Assembly (NCBI GenBank): GCA_900320225.1
Contig: ONRL01000001.1
Span: forward strand, 65,325-109,045
Length of the DNA stretch: 43,721 nucleotides
Source of the DNA: an uncultured Lentisphaerota bacterium
Lineage (GTDB): Bacteria > Verrucomicrobiota > Kiritimatiellia > RFP12 > UBA1067
Reading direction: 5' to 3'
The position numbers and the translations under genes were made by a program. How positions within the stretch are numbered: the first letter of the stretch is position 1; each line of letters opens with the position of its first letter. This document shows positions 8,778 through 35,464 of the stretch, piece after piece. The notes beneath the pieces are model-generated. The model worked only from the letters and a program-made list of their open reading frames with translations, was not told the origin of the DNA and searched no databases.

Positions 8778-9620
8778 CTATCTCCTGAATCTTCCCGCGC
8801 GCATGCGGCTGTCGCCCGTGCCCTCGGCGAAACGCGCCTGGAGCTCCGCGAACTCGTTCTCGGCCGCGGCCTTCGTCTGGTAGCGGCCCTGGTCCTCGGA
8901 TTGCAGGCTCGCTGCCGCGAGCTCGGTGAGGTACGTCTCGAACTCGTCGCGCACGCGCACGCGCCGCCACGCCGCGTTCGCGCCCGGCGCCTCGCCTCCC
9001 GGCGCGATGTTCGCGAGCGCGATGTAGCAGTCCCGGTCCGCGGACACGTAGCACCCGGCGCCGCGCGCATACGCGCGGTCCGGCGCCCACTCGACGAAGC
9101 TCACGCGCGGCGCCTTTGGCGTGAAGCGCACGTAGACGCCCTCCGGCGCGGGCGCGGGCAGCAGCACCCCGTCCGCGAACCATCCGCATCCCTTCACCGG
9201 CGCTGCATCCGGGTGGTACTTCGGATCGGCCTCGAAGGCGAAATCATCCACCACCACGCCTCCCGGGTCGATCTCCGTGGCCTCCCAAGGCTGGTCGAAC
9301 GCCACGAACGCGCTCACCTGCTCCATCTTCAGCTCTTCCCATCCCGTCGCCGTGCGCCGCCAGTACTTTCCGTCGCACCAGCACTCCTGGCCCGTGGCGT
9401 ATCGCTCGGCCGCCGCTTCCAGATCCGCCTCGATCGGCCTGTACCTGCGGAACTCCACGCGCCGGAGCGCCGGGAACTTCTCGGCGTGGATCCGTCGCAG
9501 CCCTTCGTTCACCGCCGTTCCGGCCATGATGCGCCACCTGAGCGGCACCGTGCCTGTCACGAGCTCGTAACCGGCCATCGCGCACGCGGCCTCGAGGATG
9601 TTGCCCATTTGGATTTCCAT
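8778..9620 (-). CDS. Putative tail-adaptor / carbohydrate-contacting late protein
   Basis: 280 residues from ATG at 9620, two bases upstream of the repeat-protein gene. The N-terminal part (MGNILEAACAMAGYE...WRIMAGTAVNEGLRRIHAEKFP) is helical and recalls head-tail adaptor proteins that count motif by motif around the portal. The middle has Trp/Cys-containing beta segments, e.g. YATGQECWCDGKYWRRT and YVSADRDCYIALANIAPGG; the second resembles small carbohydrate-binding modules in tail proteins. The C-terminal 40 residues are helical with TKAAAENEFAELQARF. Adaptor identity is a guess from position and length; the gene itself is secure. Confidence 0.7.
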   Translation of the reverse strand: MEIQMGNILEAACAMAGYELVTGTVPLRWRIMAGTAVNEGLRRIHAEKFPALRRVEFRRYRPIEADLEAAAERYATGQECWCDGKYWRRTATGWEELKMEQVSAFVAFDQPWEATEIDPGGVVVDDFAFEADPKYHPDAAPVKGCGWFADGVLLPAPAPEGVYVRFTPKAPRVSFVEWAPDRAYARGAGCYVSADRDCYIALANIAPGGEAPGANAAWRRVRVRDEFETYLTELAAASLQSEDQGRYQTKAAAENEFAELQARFAEGTGDSRMRAGRFRR

Positions 9621-10085: not shown

Positions 10086-10871
10086 CTACCTCTCCAGGAT
10101 CAGCTGCACCTTGCCGCCGTCGAACGCCGTGCCCTCGCCGATTAGCAAGTCGCCCGGGAATATCGCCGTGTCCAGCGCGTTCGTCTTGTAGCCGTTTGTG
10201 AGCGTCGCGTTCCAGAGCGTGTTCGTGACCGCGAGGCTTGCGACGTGCCGCGTGCGCTCCGTGCGCACTTCCACCGTGTCCACCACCTGGTACGTCACGT
10301 TCGACGAGAGCGCGTGCGTGACCGACTGCGACGTGTAGAGCAGGTCTTTCGTCGGCCATCCCGCCACGAACGGCTTCGCGCCCCACGCCTGCCCCACCAT
10401 GTTGCTCACGATCCCCGTCCTGACGAGCGGCACCGCGTTCGTGAGCGCCGTCACGTTCGTGACCGTGTGCGTGAGGTTCGAGAGGCCCGTCGTGGCGCTC
10501 CACACCGTGCCCGTGACGACCGTCGCCACGTTCGTGACATACGTCACGCCCATCACGCTGCCCGTCGCCACGGCGTAGGCGTTCGTGGTCCATGCCCTCC
10601 ACAGCGTCTCGGTGGCCGTGTACTGGACGTTGCTCGTCGCCGGCCTGTACGTGTAGTTCGTCACGACCGCCTCCTCGAACCACTCCACGTCGAGCGGCGT
10701 CACGCGCTTCACCGTGACCGTGCCCGTCGCGTTCGTGGAGACCGCCTGCGCGGCGACGGCGCGCGCCGCCTCGAGCGGCGCCGTCTCGCCCTTCCCCACC
10801 TCGACGCCCACGATCGCCGCGTGCGCGGCGCACGCCGCGGCCAGCATTGCCATCGTTGTAAGTTTCTTCAT
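10086..10871 (-). CDS. Exported phage protein, Thr/Asn/Val-rich
   Basis: 261 residues. The N-terminus MKKLTTMAMLAAACAAHA is a textbook signal peptide with an A-X-A site before residue 19. The mature part is dominated by Val, Thr and Asn with repeated 'VTN' and 'TNA' steps (VTNVATVVTGTVWS, NLTHTVTNVTALTNAVPL), suggesting a repetitive beta fold. The gene follows the lipoprotein gene by 13 bp and abuts the next gene. Its composition matches other late proteins here, which suggests one related set of surface or fibre-like proteins. No family recognised. Confidence 0.75.
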   Translation of the reverse strand: MKKLTTMAMLAAACAAHAAIVGVEVGKGETAPLEAARAVAAQAVSTNATGTVTVKRVTPLDVEWFEEAVVTNYTYRPATSNVQYTATETLWRAWTTNAYAVATGSVMGVTYVTNVATVVTGTVWSATTGLSNLTHTVTNVTALTNAVPLVRTGIVSNMVGQAWGAKPFVAGWPTKDLLYTSQSVTHALSSNVTYQVVDTVEVRTERTRHVASLAVTNTLWNATLTNGYKTNALDTAIFPGDLLIGEGTAFDGGKVQLILER

Positions 10872-11388: not shown

Positions 11389-11462
11389 TTCTTCTTCTCC
11401 TTGTTTCCTTTTTTCGATAATAACCACGCGGGCGGCTTCCACCAAATTCACAACATGGCCTT

Positions 11463-29951: not shown

Positions 29952-30779
29952 TTACTTCTCCCCCGGCGCTGTTGGTGGGGTGGGGGTCCCCCCCTCCCCG
30001 TGGGGGGGCTCAGTCGCGGTGGAGGGGGTGGCGAACGGCGGCTCCGCCGACGATTCTGCCGTTGTTTTGTCAACGGATTTGGCAACGAATAGCGAATTTC
30101 CCTTTGTTTTCTGCATACCTTCGCTCTGTAGCACAGACTCCGCAGCCGGATTCTCGACGGCTCCTGGCATCGTCGCGGCGGTCAGCTCGGCGTTCGCGGC
30201 GCTCGGCTCGCCGGTTGATTCATCGCCATGCGGCGCGGGATTTTTTTCTCGCCAGAACCCATCGGCAGACTGCTCGTAGACCTCGATGTAGTCATCGGTC
30301 GCCTTATCTTCCCTACCTTCCGTTTTCGGCTTTTCCTCTTCCGATCCTCCATCTTCCTTGCCAGTCAATGCCTTGAGCGCGTTCGTGAGCCCGACGATTC
30401 CCGCTTTCCTCACTGCTTTAGGATCGTCCAGCAGTTTCTGGAGTTCCGAGACGGTTCTAAGCGCAACGCTCGCAGACTTGGCCCTAATCCTCGCCTTAAC
30501 AGACGAAAAACCCCGCGCGGCGCATTCCGTCTCGACGAGCGCGTGCATTGTCTGCGGTGAGATTTGAAGGATGTCGCAGATAGATTCCGCTGAGCGGTTT
30601 TTCTCGAAAAAGGCCCGCGCGGCCAGGGCGTACTTTCCCGGATAGCGGACGCGCAGCATCTCGCCCGTGAACTCCTTGTGCCGGATGTCCGCGCCGATGT
30701 CTGCGAGGTCCTGCTCGGCCCTCGACACGATCTCCAGCTCGAAACCCGGCAACGCCTGTTCTGTGCTCTCTACCGGCAT
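29952..30779 (-). CDS. HTH protein with long disordered tail (small-terminase-like?)
   Basis: 275 residues from ATG at 30779, which overlaps the end of the upstream gene by about 10 bases and has GAGGA upstream. Residues 45-100 hold a helix-turn-helix of the type RSAESICDILQISPQTMHAL, as in small-terminase or transposase-like DNA-binding domains. A helical region follows (VALRTVSELQKLLDDPKAVR). The last 130 residues are low-complexity Pro/Ala/Glu/Thr, ending in GGTPTPPTAPGEK. It is early, far from the large terminase gene, so a regulatory role is as likely as packaging. Confidence 0.65.
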   Translation of the reverse strand: MPVESTEQALPGFELEIVSRAEQDLADIGADIRHKEFTGEMLRVRYPGKYALAARAFFEKNRSAESICDILQISPQTMHALVETECAARGFSSVKARIRAKSASVALRTVSELQKLLDDPKAVRKAGIVGLTNALKALTGKEDGGSEEEKPKTEGREDKATDDYIEVYEQSADGFWREKNPAPHGDESTGEPSAANAELTAATMPGAVENPAAESVLQSEGMQKTKGNSLFVAKSVDKTTAESSAEPPFATPSTATEPPHGEGGTPTPPTAPGEK

Positions 30780-31021
30780 GCGGCCAGTTCCTCCTCGCGG
30801 TCCAGCCACGACGTAATCGAACGGCGGCGTATCTTCCTGCGCTTGCCCGGCAGAAAAGCGAGTCCGCGATCTCCGTGCGTCTGTGCGTACAAGTCCATGG
30901 CTCGCGTGATTTCCCTGTCGCCGATGCGCAGGATGATGCTCACTTCCTGAACGCTCAAAATCTCGTCCGGGTCGCCGCTGAACTCGCGGCGCCTCTTCTC
31001 CTGTACCGCTTCTGCTTCCAT
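30770..31021 (-). CDS. Excisionase-like HTH protein
   Basis: 83 residues from ATG at 31021. The stretch DPDEILSVQEVSIILRIGDREITRAMDL matches the helix-turn-helix of excisionase-type proteins (a helix after 'LSVQEVS'), followed by RKIRRRSITSWLDREEEL, the typical wing and helix. Such proteins bend DNA and steer the integrase toward excision, or act as early regulators. Position near the start of the early operon suits either. Confidence 0.75.
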   Translation of the reverse strand: MEAEAVQEKRRREFSGDPDEILSVQEVSIILRIGDREITRAMDLYAQTHGDRGLAFLPGKRRKIRRRSITSWLDREEELAACR

Positions 31022-31234: not shown

Positions 31235-31411
31235 TCAGACCCTTTCCAGTACTCCGATAATTCTCAGTCCGTTACGCACCAACACCGATTCGGATACTCC
31301 GTTCTGCGCGGCAACTTCCTCGATGCGCTTCGCCTCGCTCGGCGTCACACGAAACGACTTGCAGATCGTCGTCTCCCGCTTCTCGATCGTCACTTTGCTC
31401 TCTTCTGGCAT
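31235..31411 (-). CDS. Ribbon-helix-helix-like small regulator
   Basis: 58 residues from ATG at 31411. KVTIEKRETTICKSFRVTPS then SEAKRIEEVAAQNGVSESVL reads as a beta ribbon followed by two helices, the ribbon-helix-helix fold of small phage and plasmid repressors. It is the second gene of the early operon. DNA-binding is inferred. Confidence 0.7.
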   Translation of the reverse strand: MPEESKVTIEKRETTICKSFRVTPSEAKRIEEVAAQNGVSESVLVRNGLRIIGVLERV

Positions 31412-31575
31412 TTTCCCTCCTTTGCTGGTACTTCTTCCAGCCATTCCTTCGGCAAGGAAAATGGCAATGCCCACTTTCTGTCCGCAGGCTTTACCATTAC
31501 GACGTGCTTGTACTCTCGGATCACACGGTACACTCGCCGTGTCTCCTTGTTCTTCATAATCTTTTCGCCTTGCAT
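31390..31575 (-). CDS. First small gene of the early operon, unknown
   Basis: 61 residues from ATG at 31575, chosen for AAGGA seven bases upstream; an internal ATG at 31557 is an alternative. Basic and beta-like (KETRRVYRVIREYKHVVMVK, WALPFSLPKEWLEEV). It overlaps the next gene by 22 bases and begins about 30 bases after an operator-like dyad, so it marks the start of lytic transcription. Confidence 0.65.
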   Translation of the reverse strand: MQGEKIMKNKETRRVYRVIREYKHVVMVKPADRKWALPFSLPKEWLEEVPAKEGKCQKRAK

Positions 31576-31606
31576 TTCCGGTTCCTTTTTTGTACCCTGT
31601 ATGCGG

Positions 31607-31626
31607 TTCTGTCTTACAGAGACGCG
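31607..31626. promoter_or_regulatory. Operator-like 20-mer upstream of the early operon
   Basis: TTCTGTCTTACAGAGACGCG, containing the dyad TCTGT-CTT-ACAGA. The exact reverse complement occurs at 33362-33381 upstream of the repressor gene. A shared site at both promoters is what a repressor that controls lytic genes and itself would need. Confidence 0.6.
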
Positions 31627-31645
31627 TGGAAAGGGAGGAGAATAC

Positions 31646-32431
31646 TTAATCATCAGAGTCGGATGAATCATCAGAATCGGAATCAATTACGCGACCAGTC
31701 CAACGGTCGACTGTAACTGCCCATTTGGGATGAGAAGTATAGCGAGTAGCAAGACAGTAAATGATAACAGACACAAGAATAATCAGAGAAAAGAATACTA
31801 GTTGATTGTCGTGAATCCACGAGAAGAATCGCGAGCGGGAAGAAGGAGGTGGTAAAGGCGGAATGGATTGCACATTAGAAGAGGGAAATCTAGAAGCTGG
31901 TGGCGAAGAACGAAAAGAGTTAAAAGAATGTTTGGGTTTGGAATCGGATTTAAAAAAGGTATCGTAAAGGTAGAAGAAAATGCCAAGGGGGCAAAGAATA
32001 AAGACTGGCCAAAAGTACCATTCAAATGTGAACTTGGCGCGCTCAAGAACATTCTGCTTTGGATTAAGGGGATTATAGAATACTTGGACGGGAAAGTTGT
32101 CATATTCTGGCAATTGACGTTTGCCGCCTGGAATCCACCGTGGTGAGGCTTTAGAATTGAAATGGGCTTTACCAGTGTATGTATCATCACCAAGTTGAAA
32201 TTCATAAGAAACATCAATAGAAGTTTGATTGACATTACGCCGAGCCGGTCCAGAAGGCGTTACAGTAAAATCTGATTCATTCCAGGAGGTAATCTTTCCC
32301 TCAACGGAAGGCCAGGAAGCATGTTTCTTCTCAAGTCGATATTGATGAATGCAAGTAGCAATCGAAAAGACGAGCAAGCCAAAGGCAATAAGACAAGACA
32401 AGCCATTAGAAAAGGTTTCGCGGTGGTTCAT
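31646..32431 (-). CDS. DUF3592-type membrane protein, AT-rich cargo
   Basis: 261 residues with AAAGGA upstream of the ATG. Three membrane helices: about 12-29 (LSCLIAFGLLVFSIATCI), 135-157 (FEWYFWPVFILCPLGIFFYL) and 209-230 (NQLVFFSLIILVSVIIYCLA). Between the first two is an exposed beta domain with SWPSVEGKIT near its start and FPVQVFYNPLNPKQNVLERA at its end, the hallmark of DUF3592 proteins. A Ser/Pro-rich loop and a striking acidic Ser-Asp tail (DSDSDDSSDSDD) follow. The gene is far more AT-rich than the phage around it and lies in line with the repressor, so it is probably expressed in the lysogen. Role unknown; phage exclusion or lysogenic conversion is inferred. Confidence 0.8.
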   Translation of the reverse strand: MNHRETFSNGLSCLIAFGLLVFSIATCIHQYRLEKKHASWPSVEGKITSWNESDFTVTPSGPARRNVNQTSIDVSYEFQLGDDTYTGKAHFNSKASPRWIPGGKRQLPEYDNFPVQVFYNPLNPKQNVLERAKFTFEWYFWPVFILCPLGIFFYLYDTFFKSDSKPKHSFNSFRSSPPASRFPSSNVQSIPPLPPPSSRSRFFSWIHDNQLVFFSLIILVSVIIYCLATRYTSHPKWAVTVDRWTGRVIDSDSDDSSDSDD

Positions 32432-32455
32432 TGAATAATCCTTTGCGATTAGAAG

Positions 32456-33004
32456 TTAGTCGGATTGGAGTAAATCTTCATCAGAAGGATTGACGGAACC
32501 ACCATCAATAAGATTGATAGGATGCAGGGGATGCAAAGATTCTTTGTCAATTTGTTTCTTTACACGATTGATATCCAAACGAATACCAATAGCTAAAAAG
32601 CGCGCACCAGCAGGACGAGGAAGGGCCGAATAAGGGGAATCCTCAAGAGAAAAAGAATCGTCAAAGTGCTTCTCAAAACAATGAGCAATGCGGCGATCGT
32701 AATCAAGGCGCAATTGTAATAGAGCACGGTTACGTTCACGGAGCAAGTCGCAGACGTCACCAAATTTTGTTTCACAATAATCGGCAAGATTAGTAGCCAA
32801 CTGCTTAGCATTACGAGAAGTGGAAGAAGATGAAGTTTTTGCAGAACAACCATCATGAAAATACGAGACAAGAACACCGAGAGCAAGGCAAACTACGCAA
32901 GAAATGGCGCAACCAATTTTGTCATTGTCAAGGAGATTACTCACGGGAAAGTACTCACGCAGTTTTGGTAGCAGACGAGCCACCAGTTTTGACAGGATGT
33001 ACAT
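32456..33004 (-). CDS. Single-span membrane protein downstream of repressor
   Basis: 182 residues from ATG at 33004, preceded by a GGGGGG run; the start lies inside the end of the repressor gene (about 50 bases of overlap). One membrane helix at about 30-48 (IGCAISCVVCLALGVLVSYF) with a basic flank before it (KLVARLLPKLREYF), then a 130-residue soluble part with a helical segment (NLADYCETKFGDVCDLLRER). AT-rich like the next gene and unlike the phage. No family recognised. The pair recalls the rexB/rexA arrangement after lambda cI only in layout. Confidence 0.75.
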   Translation of the reverse strand: MYILSKLVARLLPKLREYFPVSNLLDNDKIGCAISCVVCLALGVLVSYFHDGCSAKTSSSSTSRNAKQLATNLADYCETKFGDVCDLLRERNRALLQLRLDYDRRIAHCFEKHFDDSFSLEDSPYSALPRPAGARFLAIGIRLDINRVKKQIDKESLHPLHPINLIDGGSVNPSDEDLLQSD

Positions 33005-33311
33005 GGTGCCCCCCGACAAGGGCAAGGGCCTTTTGAAGAGCATCATTAGCAACTTCAAGGTCGTGGCATTTTCGCTGCAAGGCGTCGCTCACCGAGCCGG
33101 TACCGGGCGCACGCTCATCGGAAAGGCCGAGGAGCCAGTCGGCAGAAACACCAAGTTTAGTGCAAATAGAAATTACGGCATCAATAGTGGGACGGCGCTG
33201 GTAAAGAAGCCAATTGGTATAAGTGTTCAAGGGAATATCAAGCAACGCAGCGAACTCCTTTTGGGTTCGCTCGCCTTGAAGCTCCTTAAGGTGCTCTACA
33301 ACTTTTTTCAT
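32955..33311 (-). CDS. XRE-family repressor
   Basis: 118 residues from ATG at 33311 (MKKVVEHLKELQGERTQKEF). The helix-turn-helix spans about 15-60: TQKEFAALLDIPLNTYTNWL, then RRPTIDAVISICTKLGVSAD followed by WLLGLSDE, a classic XRE ending. A short helix (HDLEVANDALQKALALV) may dimerise. It lacks a LexA-like protease domain, so induction must not rely on self-cleavage. It faces two operator-like elements just upstream and lies opposite the plus-strand promoter at 33330. It probably maintains lysogeny. Confidence 0.85.
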   Translation of the reverse strand: MKKVVEHLKELQGERTQKEFAALLDIPLNTYTNWLLYQRRPTIDAVISICTKLGVSADWLLGLSDERAPGTGSVSDALQRKCHDLEVANDALQKALALVGGHHVHPVKTGGSSATKTA

Positions 33312-33329
33312 AAAACATTCACTTTCGTG

Positions 33330-33358
33330 TTGCGCATACACCCAGAAAGGTGTATACT
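33330..33358 (+). promoter_or_regulatory. Plus-strand sigma70-like promoter with embedded operator
   Basis: TTGCGC (33330-33335) and TATACT (33353-33358) are 17 bases apart. The spacer is filled by a perfect inverted repeat, ATACACC-N6-GGTGTAT (33336-33355), overlapping the -10. This is just upstream of the repressor gene in the divergent direction. A protein bound to the repeat would block the promoter. Confidence 0.6.
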
Positions 33359-33361
33359 GTC

Positions 33362-33381
33362 CGCGTCTCTGTAAGACAGAA
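33362..33381. promoter_or_regulatory. Operator-like 20-mer upstream of repressor
   Basis: CGCGTCTCTGTAAGACAGAA, the exact reverse complement of the site at 31607-31626. It starts four bases after the -10 of the plus-strand promoter, at the expected transcription start. Confidence 0.6.
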
Positions 33382-33525: not shown

Positions 33526-33756
33526 ATGGGCAATCTTCAAGCCATCATCCATAAATGCCGAGCACCTGAAACTGGTTACTGGGCCGAAGTCCCTTCTCTC
33601 CCTGGTTGCGTCACCCAGGGCGAAACGCTCGAAGAAGTTCGCGCCATGATTCAAGATGCCGTTCACGCCTGGTTCACCTGCGCATGGGAACTCGCCATGC
33701 GTGGCCGCAAAAAGCGCCTTGCGAAAACCGACATCATGGAGCCTGTTTTCGCATGA
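33526..33756 (+). CDS. hicB: HicB-type antitoxin
   Basis: 76 residues. The segment GYWAEVPSLPGCVTQGETLE followed by EVRAMIQDAVHAWF is the partial RNase H fold of HicB antitoxins. The C-terminus is short and lacks an obvious ribbon-helix-helix or HTH DNA-binding domain, so this is a minimal form. It precedes the toxin gene and overlaps it as ATGA, the reverse of the more common hicA-hicB order. It is the only rightward operon of the prophage and lies between integrase and repressor, where it may stabilise the prophage. Confidence 0.9.
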   Translation: MGNLQAIIHKCRAPETGYWAEVPSLPGCVTQGETLEEVRAMIQDAVHAWFTCAWELAMRGRKKRLAKTDIMEPVFA

Positions 33757-33962
33757 AGGCTAAACCTTATTGGCGTGTCGTCGAAGTCTTGAAGGCATAC
33801 GGTTTTGTCTACATTCGTTCCGTTGGATCCCATCGGCAATTTCACAAGCCCGGCCTTGTAATGATCGTCACCGTTCCCTTTCATGGACGCAACTGCATGA
33901 TCAAGACCGGCATTCTCAAAAGCATTGCTCGTCAATCCGGCATCCCAGATTCCGCTTTCTGA
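33753..33962 (+). CDS. hicA: HicA-type mRNA interferase toxin
   Basis: 69 residues. VVEVLKAYGFVYIRSVGSHR followed by QFHKPG carries the catalytic-type His in GSHRQF, and VPFHGRNCMIKTGILKSIAR matches the second half of HicA, a small dsRNA-binding-fold ribonuclease. Slightly longer spacing than the shortest HicA proteins but complete. The antitoxin gene precedes and overlaps it. Confidence 0.9.
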   Translation: MKAKPYWRVVEVLKAYGFVYIRSVGSHRQFHKPGLVMIVTVPFHGRNCMIKTGILKSIARQSGIPDSAF

Positions 33963-34075: not shown

Positions 34076-35212
34076 CTAAATCAGATCCTCCGCGCGCACT
34101 GCCTCCGGCGCCATGTCCGCCACGTCCGCGTAGTAGTAGCTCAGCGTCCTGATGTCGTCGCCGCTCAGCGCGCTCGCGCGCTCCGCCCCGAACTTTCTGT
34201 ACTCCGCGTCGATCCGCATCTTCCGCAGCTCATACGCGGCCTTCTCGATTCCTTCGAATTCCTTCACCTTTTCACGCAGCATCCTGTTAAGCCGCGTGAA
34301 CGTCCACGCGCCGGCCGGCACGAGCTTTCCGTCCTCGCTCGCGATCGACTTCCGAGCCTCCTCTATTTTCGCCCACACCTCGCCGTGGATCGGCCACATC
34401 ACGTTTCGCCCGCTGCTCGATGCCGTCTTGTGCGGCGTGTAGGCCAGGTACATCTGCTCGCCCCTCCTCACGAAACACGTTCCCTCCGCCGCCACCACGT
34501 CTCCGTTTCTCATCGCGAACTGAAACATCATCGTCGCCGCGAGCCAGTACCGCTTGTCCTCGAGATCCCATAGTCCTGCGTACCATTTCTTCACCGCCTC
34601 CCGCGTCTCGTCCTTCAGACGCTGGTAGCGTCCCGGCTTGTGGTTCTTGATCGCCGGGATCTTGATCTTCTCCACGCAATATCCCTCGCGCTCGTAGTAG
34701 CGCAGCGCCCACGACGCCGTGACCGACTGTACCCCGCTCACGTACGTCCATGCGCTCACGCGCTCCTTCCCCTTTCCGATCAGCTGCACGAAATAGTTCT
34801 CCAGCTCTTCCGATGTCATGTCCGTGTACGGGCTCTCCCATCCAATCCCGCATCCCTCGACCGCATACCTGAAGTGCTTCAGCGCGTTCTGGATCGTCCT
34901 GTCCTGCGGCGTTCCCCCGTTCTTGAGCTGCTCCTGCCTCGCCGCCACTTCGTACATTTTCGCGAGCTGGCGACATGTCGGCACTTTCTTCTCCTGGCTT
35001 GCGCCCTCGGCCGCCTCGTTCTGACGCGACAGCACCCAGTTCGCGTATTCACGCCGTAGCTCTTTCGTCGGGCGCTCCCGCGCGTCCAGCGCCTGCGCGC
35101 CCTGCAGATTCGCCTTGCGCATCTGGCGCTTGCCATCGACCATTACGCGAAAGAACACGCTGCCGTCGCAGAGATAGATGCCCTTCGCGAGCTTCTTCTG
35201 TTTTCTTGCCAT
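34076..35212 (-). CDS. int: Tyrosine recombinase (integrase), divergent
   Basis: 378 residues. The first catalytic Arg lies in FQFAMRNGDVVAAEG; a Lys-bearing hairpin follows in LAYTPHKTASSSGR. The second block, which is usually H-x-L-R, reads YELRKMRIDAEYRK, so the His is replaced by Tyr while the Arg remains. The conserved His/Trp box is replaced by SALSGDDIRTLSYYYADV, where one Tyr is the probable nucleophile. The N-terminal 170 residues form an arm-type and core-binding region (EQLKNGGTPQDRTIQNALKH). It catalyses phage integration and excision. It sits next to the chromosome boundary. Confidence 0.85.
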   Translation of the reverse strand: MARKQKKLAKGIYLCDGSVFFRVMVDGKRQMRKANLQGAQALDARERPTKELRREYANWVLSRQNEAAEGASQEKKVPTCRQLAKMYEVAARQEQLKNGGTPQDRTIQNALKHFRYAVEGCGIGWESPYTDMTSEELENYFVQLIGKGKERVSAWTYVSGVQSVTASWALRYYEREGYCVEKIKIPAIKNHKPGRYQRLKDETREAVKKWYAGLWDLEDKRYWLAATMMFQFAMRNGDVVAAEGTCFVRRGEQMYLAYTPHKTASSSGRNVMWPIHGEVWAKIEEARKSIASEDGKLVPAGAWTFTRLNRMLREKVKEFEGIEKAAYELRKMRIDAEYRKFGAERASALSGDDIRTLSYYYADVADMAPEAVRAEDLI

Positions 35213-35410: not shown

Positions 35411-35437
35411 TGCTCTATCCAGTTGAGCTACAGTCGC
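35411..35437 (-). other. tRNA 5'-half-like fragment (candidate att remnant)
   Basis: On the minus strand, GCGACTG-TA-GCTC-N9-GAGCA matches the acceptor 5' strand and D arm of an Arg-type tRNA. No anticodon arm, T arm or complementary 3' acceptor follows, so it is not a whole tRNA. It may be what remains of a tRNA used as an attachment site, or chance. Confidence 0.3.
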
Positions 35438-35464
35438 ATTGCTGCGACCCTGAGGCCATTAAGG

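Follow-up and report, generated by a model that had tools for sequence, protein, structure and literature searches.

Systems of the Mu gin and P1 cin type rely on serine recombinases, and what they switch is mostly tail-fibre genes. Within prophages, PinQ inverts cryptic prophage DNA (PMC12529663). In mycobacteriophages such as BPs, the immunity repressor is coupled to phage site-specific recombination in that the repressor gene contains the attachment site, so that integration alters its product (PMC4557955). Integration-dependent immunity (PMC4557955) and PinQ inversion (PMC12529663) are the nearest published ideas to the locus reported here, and no earlier description of an invertible repressor or immunity region was found in the open-access literature searched.

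The locus lies in a stretch of 43,721 nucleotides from an uncultured Lentisphaerota bacterium, hereafter the window. Comparing its sequence with that of related prophages, we read the segment at 31607-33381 as a recombinase-bounded immunity cassette that would invert, is probably exchanged, and would thereby link or unlink a lytic promoter, a reading to which we assign a probability of roughly 0.5.

The repressor cassette and its prophage

The cassette is carried by a prophage of ~62% GC whose integration site is a host tRNA-Arg. Its 29-bp attachment repeat has a second copy, at contig position ~59320, within an intact tRNA-Arg(CCG), and the two copies give a prophage length of ~41.4 kb. This tRNA-Arg(CCG) integration is seen at L038:4270-4346 together with window positions 35412-35440, and the same tRNA-derived attachment sequence adjoins the integrases of two related prophages (G041 and G144). 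Read along the minus strand, the attachment repeat is followed by the integrase (35212-34076), by hicBA on the opposite strand, and by the repressor cassette. The cassette genes run in one direction, from the repressor through a 182-aa single-span protein to a DUF3592 protein, and are followed by the early operon, which opens with a short ORF and a ribbon-helix-helix gene; profile matches identified a cytosine methyltransferase, DnaB, and the large terminase further on. The features are as follows:

31235-31474, minus strand: ribbon-helix-helix (NikA/CopG-like) gene close to where the early operon begins, from profile matches
31575-31606, minus strand: leader of ~31 bp from the left repeat arm to the first early ORF, without a promoter match
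31607-31626, plus strand: left repeat arm, bounding the cassette towards the early genes, with core TCTGT-N3-ACAGA
31646-32431, minus strand: DUF3592 protein, 261 aa, three hydrophobic spans and a Ser-Asp tail (Pfam E=3.6e-6)
32456-33004, minus strand: single-span membrane protein, 182 aa from an SD-preceded ATG within the repressor gene
32955-33311, minus strand: XRE/CI-type repressor, 118 aa (HTH_3 E=1.8e-8; CI-repressor HTH, Phage_CI_repr, E=3.8e-6)
33330-33358, plus strand: outward promoter-like TTGCGC-17-TATACT reading across the right arm, weak (8/12) but conserved in position
33336-33355, no strand assigned: dyad ATACACC-N6-GGTGTAT overlapping the outward promoter, a candidate repressor operator as read from the sequence
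33362-33381, minus strand: right repeat arm, cassette boundary on the integrase/hicBA side, perfect 20-bp match
33526-33756, plus strand: hicB (HicB_lk_antitox E=1.6e-7)
33753-33962, plus strand: hicA, assigned by eye
34076-35212, minus strand: 378-aa tyrosine integrase, divergent, a candidate for the recombinase that acts on the repeats
35412-35440, minus strand: attachment repeat, 29 bp, 5′ part of tRNA-Arg

The initial annotation had described an XRE repressor followed on the same strand by a single-span protein with a 130-residue soluble domain and a three-span DUF3592-type protein with a Ser-Asp tail, and we recovered this arrangement on the minus strand. The repressor matched phage transcriptional regulators in PHROGs and was RstR-like in NCBIfam, below cutoff. 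The 182-aa protein has a transmembrane segment at residues 30-48 and a soluble C-terminus of ~134 aa, and the DUF3592 protein passes the gathering cutoff of Pfam PF12158 (28 bits vs 25.3). The first membrane gene begins inside the repressor gene, as claimed, with an overlap of 50 bp, and the higher AT content reported for the cassette was borne out by GC values of 42% for each membrane gene and 44% between the repeats, compared with ~60% in the flanking phage genes. A pattern scan found neither a promoter nor a terminator on the coding strand between the three genes, which is consistent with the proposed repressor-linked operon, and they apparently form a single transcription unit.

Searches of the proteins themselves returned little. 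Neither membrane protein had a match in PADLOC or PHROGs, no window protein matched the RexA or RexB families in Pfam, PHROGs, or PADLOC, and AlphaFold run without homologues gave mean pLDDT values of 52.9 and 46.6 for the two membrane proteins, making the models unusable. Full-length relatives of the 182-aa protein were absent from phage records, IMG/VR, and 144 related genomes, its sole relative segment being the 16-residue overlap stretch in G041. The initial annotation had suggested looking for the same pair beside repressors in other prophages; the exact pair was absent from these same collections, and a partial match to the DUF3592 C-terminus in G041 was the single exception among the 144 relatives.

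That C-terminus consists of a small recurring module, one transmembrane helix followed by '(D/N)(R/Q/H)(W/R)TG', which also stands alone beside a repressor or integrase in several prophages; copies were located at L036:7658-7903, L177:8560-8922, L159:9755-10030, L074:2643-2921, and L075:12102-12386. A separate observation concerns the repressor gene, the 3′ half of which (window 32955-33148; L036:8604-8808; L089:2081-2286) is much better conserved in DNA (81% between L036 and L089) than the HTH-coding half. The next ORF begins within this conserved half, where cargo may be swapped.

Inverted repeats, cargo, and orientation in related prophages

The limits of the segment drawn in the initial annotation, 31607 and 33381, coincide with the outer ends of a 20-bp repeat that it did not mention. 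Specifically, a perfect inverted repeat, TTCTGTCTTACAGAGACGCG, brackets the repressor and both membrane genes (31607-31626/33362-33381), so that the natural unit here is the repressor together with its cargo. No equivalent inverted repeat arose in 100 shuffles with up to three mismatches allowed, and no further copy of the 20-mer was present in the genome (up to two mismatches), in the 144 relatives (up to one mismatch), or in IMG/VR. Sites homologous to the left arm were identified at loci L036, L089, L177, and L093. Additionally, a third TCTGT-N3-ACAGA core dyad, without the repeated flank, was noted at window 30125-30137 inside the coding region 29952-30809.

Relatives were found among the 144 genomes by integrase in 40 and by terminase in 12, and the prophages read closely were those with a homologous repressor. 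Four related prophages had this repressor between perfect repeats of their own (17, 22, 22, and 26 bp), giving inverton-like inverted-repeat boundaries of 17-26 bp in five prophages with the window included. In a fifth relative, G041 (listed as RUG12478), one such site was present and the contig ended before a second; an overlap of the end of this contig, C53, with another contig was sought for the second site, and none was found. Perfect repeats of at least 17 bp bracketed the gene, with one arm within 150 bp, at 4 of 27 XRE loci and in 227 of 20,000 random intervals (1.1%), a background drawn from the fetched loci with the XRE loci under test included. Upstream of the repressor, the core dyad was matched at best at 10/10 positions in the window, G144, and G015, and at 5-8/10 at all other loci; the G075 repeat departs from the core (8/10).

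Cargo differed in every prophage compared, ranging from a SoFic-type Fic protein to none. G144 (IMGVR_UViG_3300032038_000176) has perfect 26-bp repeats around the repressor, a zinc-ribbon/three-span protein, and a Fic protein identified as SoFic (PADLOC E=4.8e-51). In G041, the integrase and site are followed on the opposite strand by the genes from SecB-like to the repressor, at which the contig ends; the cargo comprises a SecB-like gene (Pfam SecB E=1.9e-8), an MqsA-like antitoxin, a small toxin candidate, an 81-aa transmembrane protein resembling the C-terminus of the window's DUF3592 protein, and a 233-aa protein. G177 (IMGVR_UViG_3300031555_010779), which was reached via its integrase after the hypothesis had been formed, has perfect 22-bp repeats enclosing the repressor, similar proteins of 171 and 179 aa, a 120-aa protein of the TM-'DRWTG' type, and a gene pair that by eye is HigBA-like. 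The 22-bp repeats of G075 enclose the repressor and four small proteins, each with predicted spans, and the 17-bp repeats of G015 enclose the repressor without cargo.

The cassette occurs in two orientations. We term these A, in which the repressor is divergent from the early genes (G144, G041, and G177), and B, in which it points into them (the window, G015, and G075); orientation in G041 was judged relative to the integrase, as in G144, the early side being off the contig. An IMG/VR record, L082, is the window sequence trimmed at the gene start 31575 and is uninformative on orientation. Because gene order is reversed along with strand, the difference points to inversion of a segment rather than to the move of a single gene, and very probably recombination sites delimit the segment and it was inverted in the course of evolution.

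An outward σ70-like sequence was present inside all five complete cassettes (5/5), in the interval between the repressor and the repeat. The match in the window is 8/12 (shuffle p 0.17), and those in the relatives are TTGACA-17-TATCTT (G144), TTGACC-17-TAAACT (G015), TTGACT-18-TATACT (G075), and TTGACG-17-TATCTT (G177). Taken one by one, shuffle p values ranged from 0.004 to 0.17, and the summed score of the first four cassettes was reached in 0 of 5000 shuffles. In orientation B, the distance from the far repeat to the first early ORF is ~31, ~40, and ~20 bp in the three prophages, the window's being ~31 bp, and no promoter match was seen in their early-gene leaders. When the window segment was flipped in silico, the outward promoter came to adjoin the early genes, the divergent repressor/early layout was restored, and two CGCATACA motifs ended up flanking the junction.

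The cassettes in orientation A have strong hairpins with T runs at their inner 3′ end, and G075 likely has one. In the window, the pattern scan picked up no terminator where the cassette ends, so that in orientation B transcripts of the repressor operon may continue into the early genes. The hicBA pair (33526-33962) is not part of the cassette; in the window's present orientation, the outward promoter points towards it. Like hicBA, a toxin-antitoxin-like pair, recognised by eye, is found just beyond the repeat in G075 (L159:7425-8481). In G015, the position directly 3′ of the outward promoter is occupied, in the present orientation, by a candidate defence gene (L093:6473-7867) for a 464-aa protein with one transmembrane helix and a weak match to the restriction endonuclease profile Mrr_cat_2 (E=0.0027, below cutoff).

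A candidate recombinase

The leading candidate for recombining the cassette repeats is the prophage's own divergent tyrosine integrase, and on its sequence features and associations we put the chance that it does so at about evens. Its family has conserved R235, K262, ExxR at 328-330, and Y361. The Phage_integrase profile matched 2 of 9 family members at E ~1e-3, with the window member below detection, and a profile search of the family against PDB gave no match; the family thus presents both the profile and the catalytic residues of tyrosine recombinases. Two associations tie it to the repeats. First, G041 and G144 have integrases that are 87% identical and 26-bp sites that are identical, together with repressors only 59% identical and unrelated cargo; integrase and site were kept while repressor and cargo changed, which links the former two. 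Second, repeats with the core TTCTGT-N3-ACAGAA lie on either side of a solo family member in G020. Repeats with a TTCTGT-type core were absent around the integrase at 26 other solo-type loci (1/27 in all), and no integrase of this family was seen on the G015 contig.

The G020 locus (L124:8980-10094) consists of an 18-bp perfect inverted repeat around the solo integrase among genes of glycosyltransferase/acetyltransferase type (polysaccharide-type), and by its sequence layout it looks like a self-inverting phase-variation element. Palindromes were noted near other integrases as well. A second paralogue in the window's own genome (L129, contig C294) lies beside three near-perfect palindromes of 23-27 bp, CAAAACAGGT-CTG-ACCTGTTTTG (2824-2846, 9127-9153, and 10358-10384), which are possibly its recombination sites. 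In two further genomes, long palindromes, CTTCTACAGAAGGGTC-A-GACCCTTCTGTAGAAG, are repeated in the vicinity of integrase relatives (L118:4905-4942, 9129-9165, and 10300-10337 in G078; L116:10254-10273 and 11401-11420 in G082).

Readings of the cassette and comparison with known systems

In the reading we prefer, the cassette would hold a repressor, an outward early promoter likely under repressor control, accessory genes expressed in the lysogen, and inverted recombinase sites. In orientation A, transcription from the internal promoter would cross the site and enter the early lytic operon unless shut off by the repressor, the usual arrangement of a temperate phage. In orientation B, that of the window, the promoter would face hicBA, the early operon would be left without an adjacent promoter, and the lysogen would be locked until the segment flips back, the recombinase most likely being the divergent tyrosine integrase. 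That the flips arose by recombination at the repeats, with the integrase as catalyst and with the regulatory effect described, is our inference. The orientation differences among related prophages could reflect old events, and that inversion is a live regulatory switch is, from the sequence comparison, nearly but not quite an even call. The full scheme, in which the integrase would flip repressor, defence cargo, and early promoter as one, lysogens would be either inducible or locked, and cassettes would be traded at the same sites, is offered tentatively.

Exchange between phages could also account for the repeats, by recombinase-mediated or homologous recombination and with no switch involved: cassettes would arrive in either orientation, which would then be historical, and the benefit would lie in swapping immunity together with defence cargo. 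The near identity of integrase and sites in G041 and G144 despite replacement of repressor and cargo is as expected under exchange, as is the different cargo of every prophage, and inverted sites would yield both orientations. Yet the presence of an outward promoter beside one site in every case is left unexplained, as are early genes without an adjacent promoter in orientation B, unless the B prophages are simply impaired, and we regard exchange without a switch as rather unlikely.

It is improbable that the repeats are repressor operators at both ends of the operon and that the orientation differences are unrelated rearrangements. The TCTGT-N3-ACAGA core is indeed a dyad with one copy in the repressor promoter region, and there is some further half-site similarity on the same strand. 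However, in G144, G041, and G177 the genes on either side of the far copy converge on it, an unlikely place for a promoter, repeat identity runs through the non-palindromic flanks (20-26 bp), the sites of G041 and G144 are identical despite the divergence of their repressors, and the different dyad ATACACC-N6-GGTGTAT already overlaps the promoter.

Equally poor odds attach to an ordinary repressor-linked lysogenic cassette with incidental repeats, which is close to the Rex-like phage-exclusion or lysogenic-conversion system first proposed for this locus. The operon layout, the AT-rich cargo, and the defence-type genes in the same slot of relatives fit such a cassette, but perfect repeats at the same place in five prophages and inversion of the segment between prophages make it hard to hold as a full account; it is tenable for description of the cargo alone. 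In that respect part of the original proposal stood. Since the slot in relatives holds SoFic, SecB-like with MqsA-like, and HigBA-like genes, by analogy a lysogen-expressed exclusion or conversion cargo is a reasonable idea, and it survives as a statement on the cargo slot; 'Rex-like' is loosely right, with nothing specific to Rex found and no Rex homology. From their position and the cargo of relatives, the window proteins most likely have an anti-phage or envelope-modifying role in the lysogen.

Finally, a transposon or transposon-like insertion with terminal inverted repeats, suggested by the perfect terminal repeats and deviating base composition, is highly improbable, there being no transposase within the segment, no target-site duplication in the prophages compared, and a single genome copy, and it is contradicted by the conserved position at the repressor locus.

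If the invertible immunity cassette is real, it would provide a heritable and reversible off-switch for prophage induction that acts via DNA layout rather than repressor level, and differences in inducibility among lysogens would become directly testable. It would also be a defined slot for the joint exchange of immunity and defence genes between phages, and thus a place to seek new defence proteins, including the DUF3592/'DRWTG' membrane proteins.

Among known systems, lambda cI-rexB-rexA resembles the cassette in that the repressor is followed by accessory genes, some of them for membrane proteins, with probable expression in the lysogen; it differs in that library searches gave no similarity to Rex, in that one-span and three-span proteins stand in place of RexB's, and in having no counterpart of the window's repeats and proposed inversion. 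SoFic has a homologue in the G144 cargo slot, and the SecB-like gene with MqsA-like antitoxin in the G041 slot resembles toxin-antitoxin-chaperone (PD-T4-9-like) systems, although the window's own two proteins match neither. As in Mu gin, P1 cin, and Qin PinQ, a prophage segment would be inverted by a phage-linked site-specific recombinase, but here the cassette is the immunity region. With BPs-type integration-dependent immunity the locus would share the coupling of a repressor to site-specific recombination, while here the attachment repeat lies elsewhere and separate repeats bracket the repressor. The tyrosine-recombinase invertible promoters (the fim switch and Bacteroides-type invertons) likewise have perfect inverted repeats around a segment with an outward promoter, here a σ70-like candidate; both orientations occur among the relatives of the window's prophage, and its candidate recombinase is a tyrosine recombinase from a family with a repeat-bracketed solo member. 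Unlike in those systems, inversion of the cassette is proposed here from the comparison of related prophages, the cassette also carries a phage repressor and cargo operon, and the target is the early operon of the phage.
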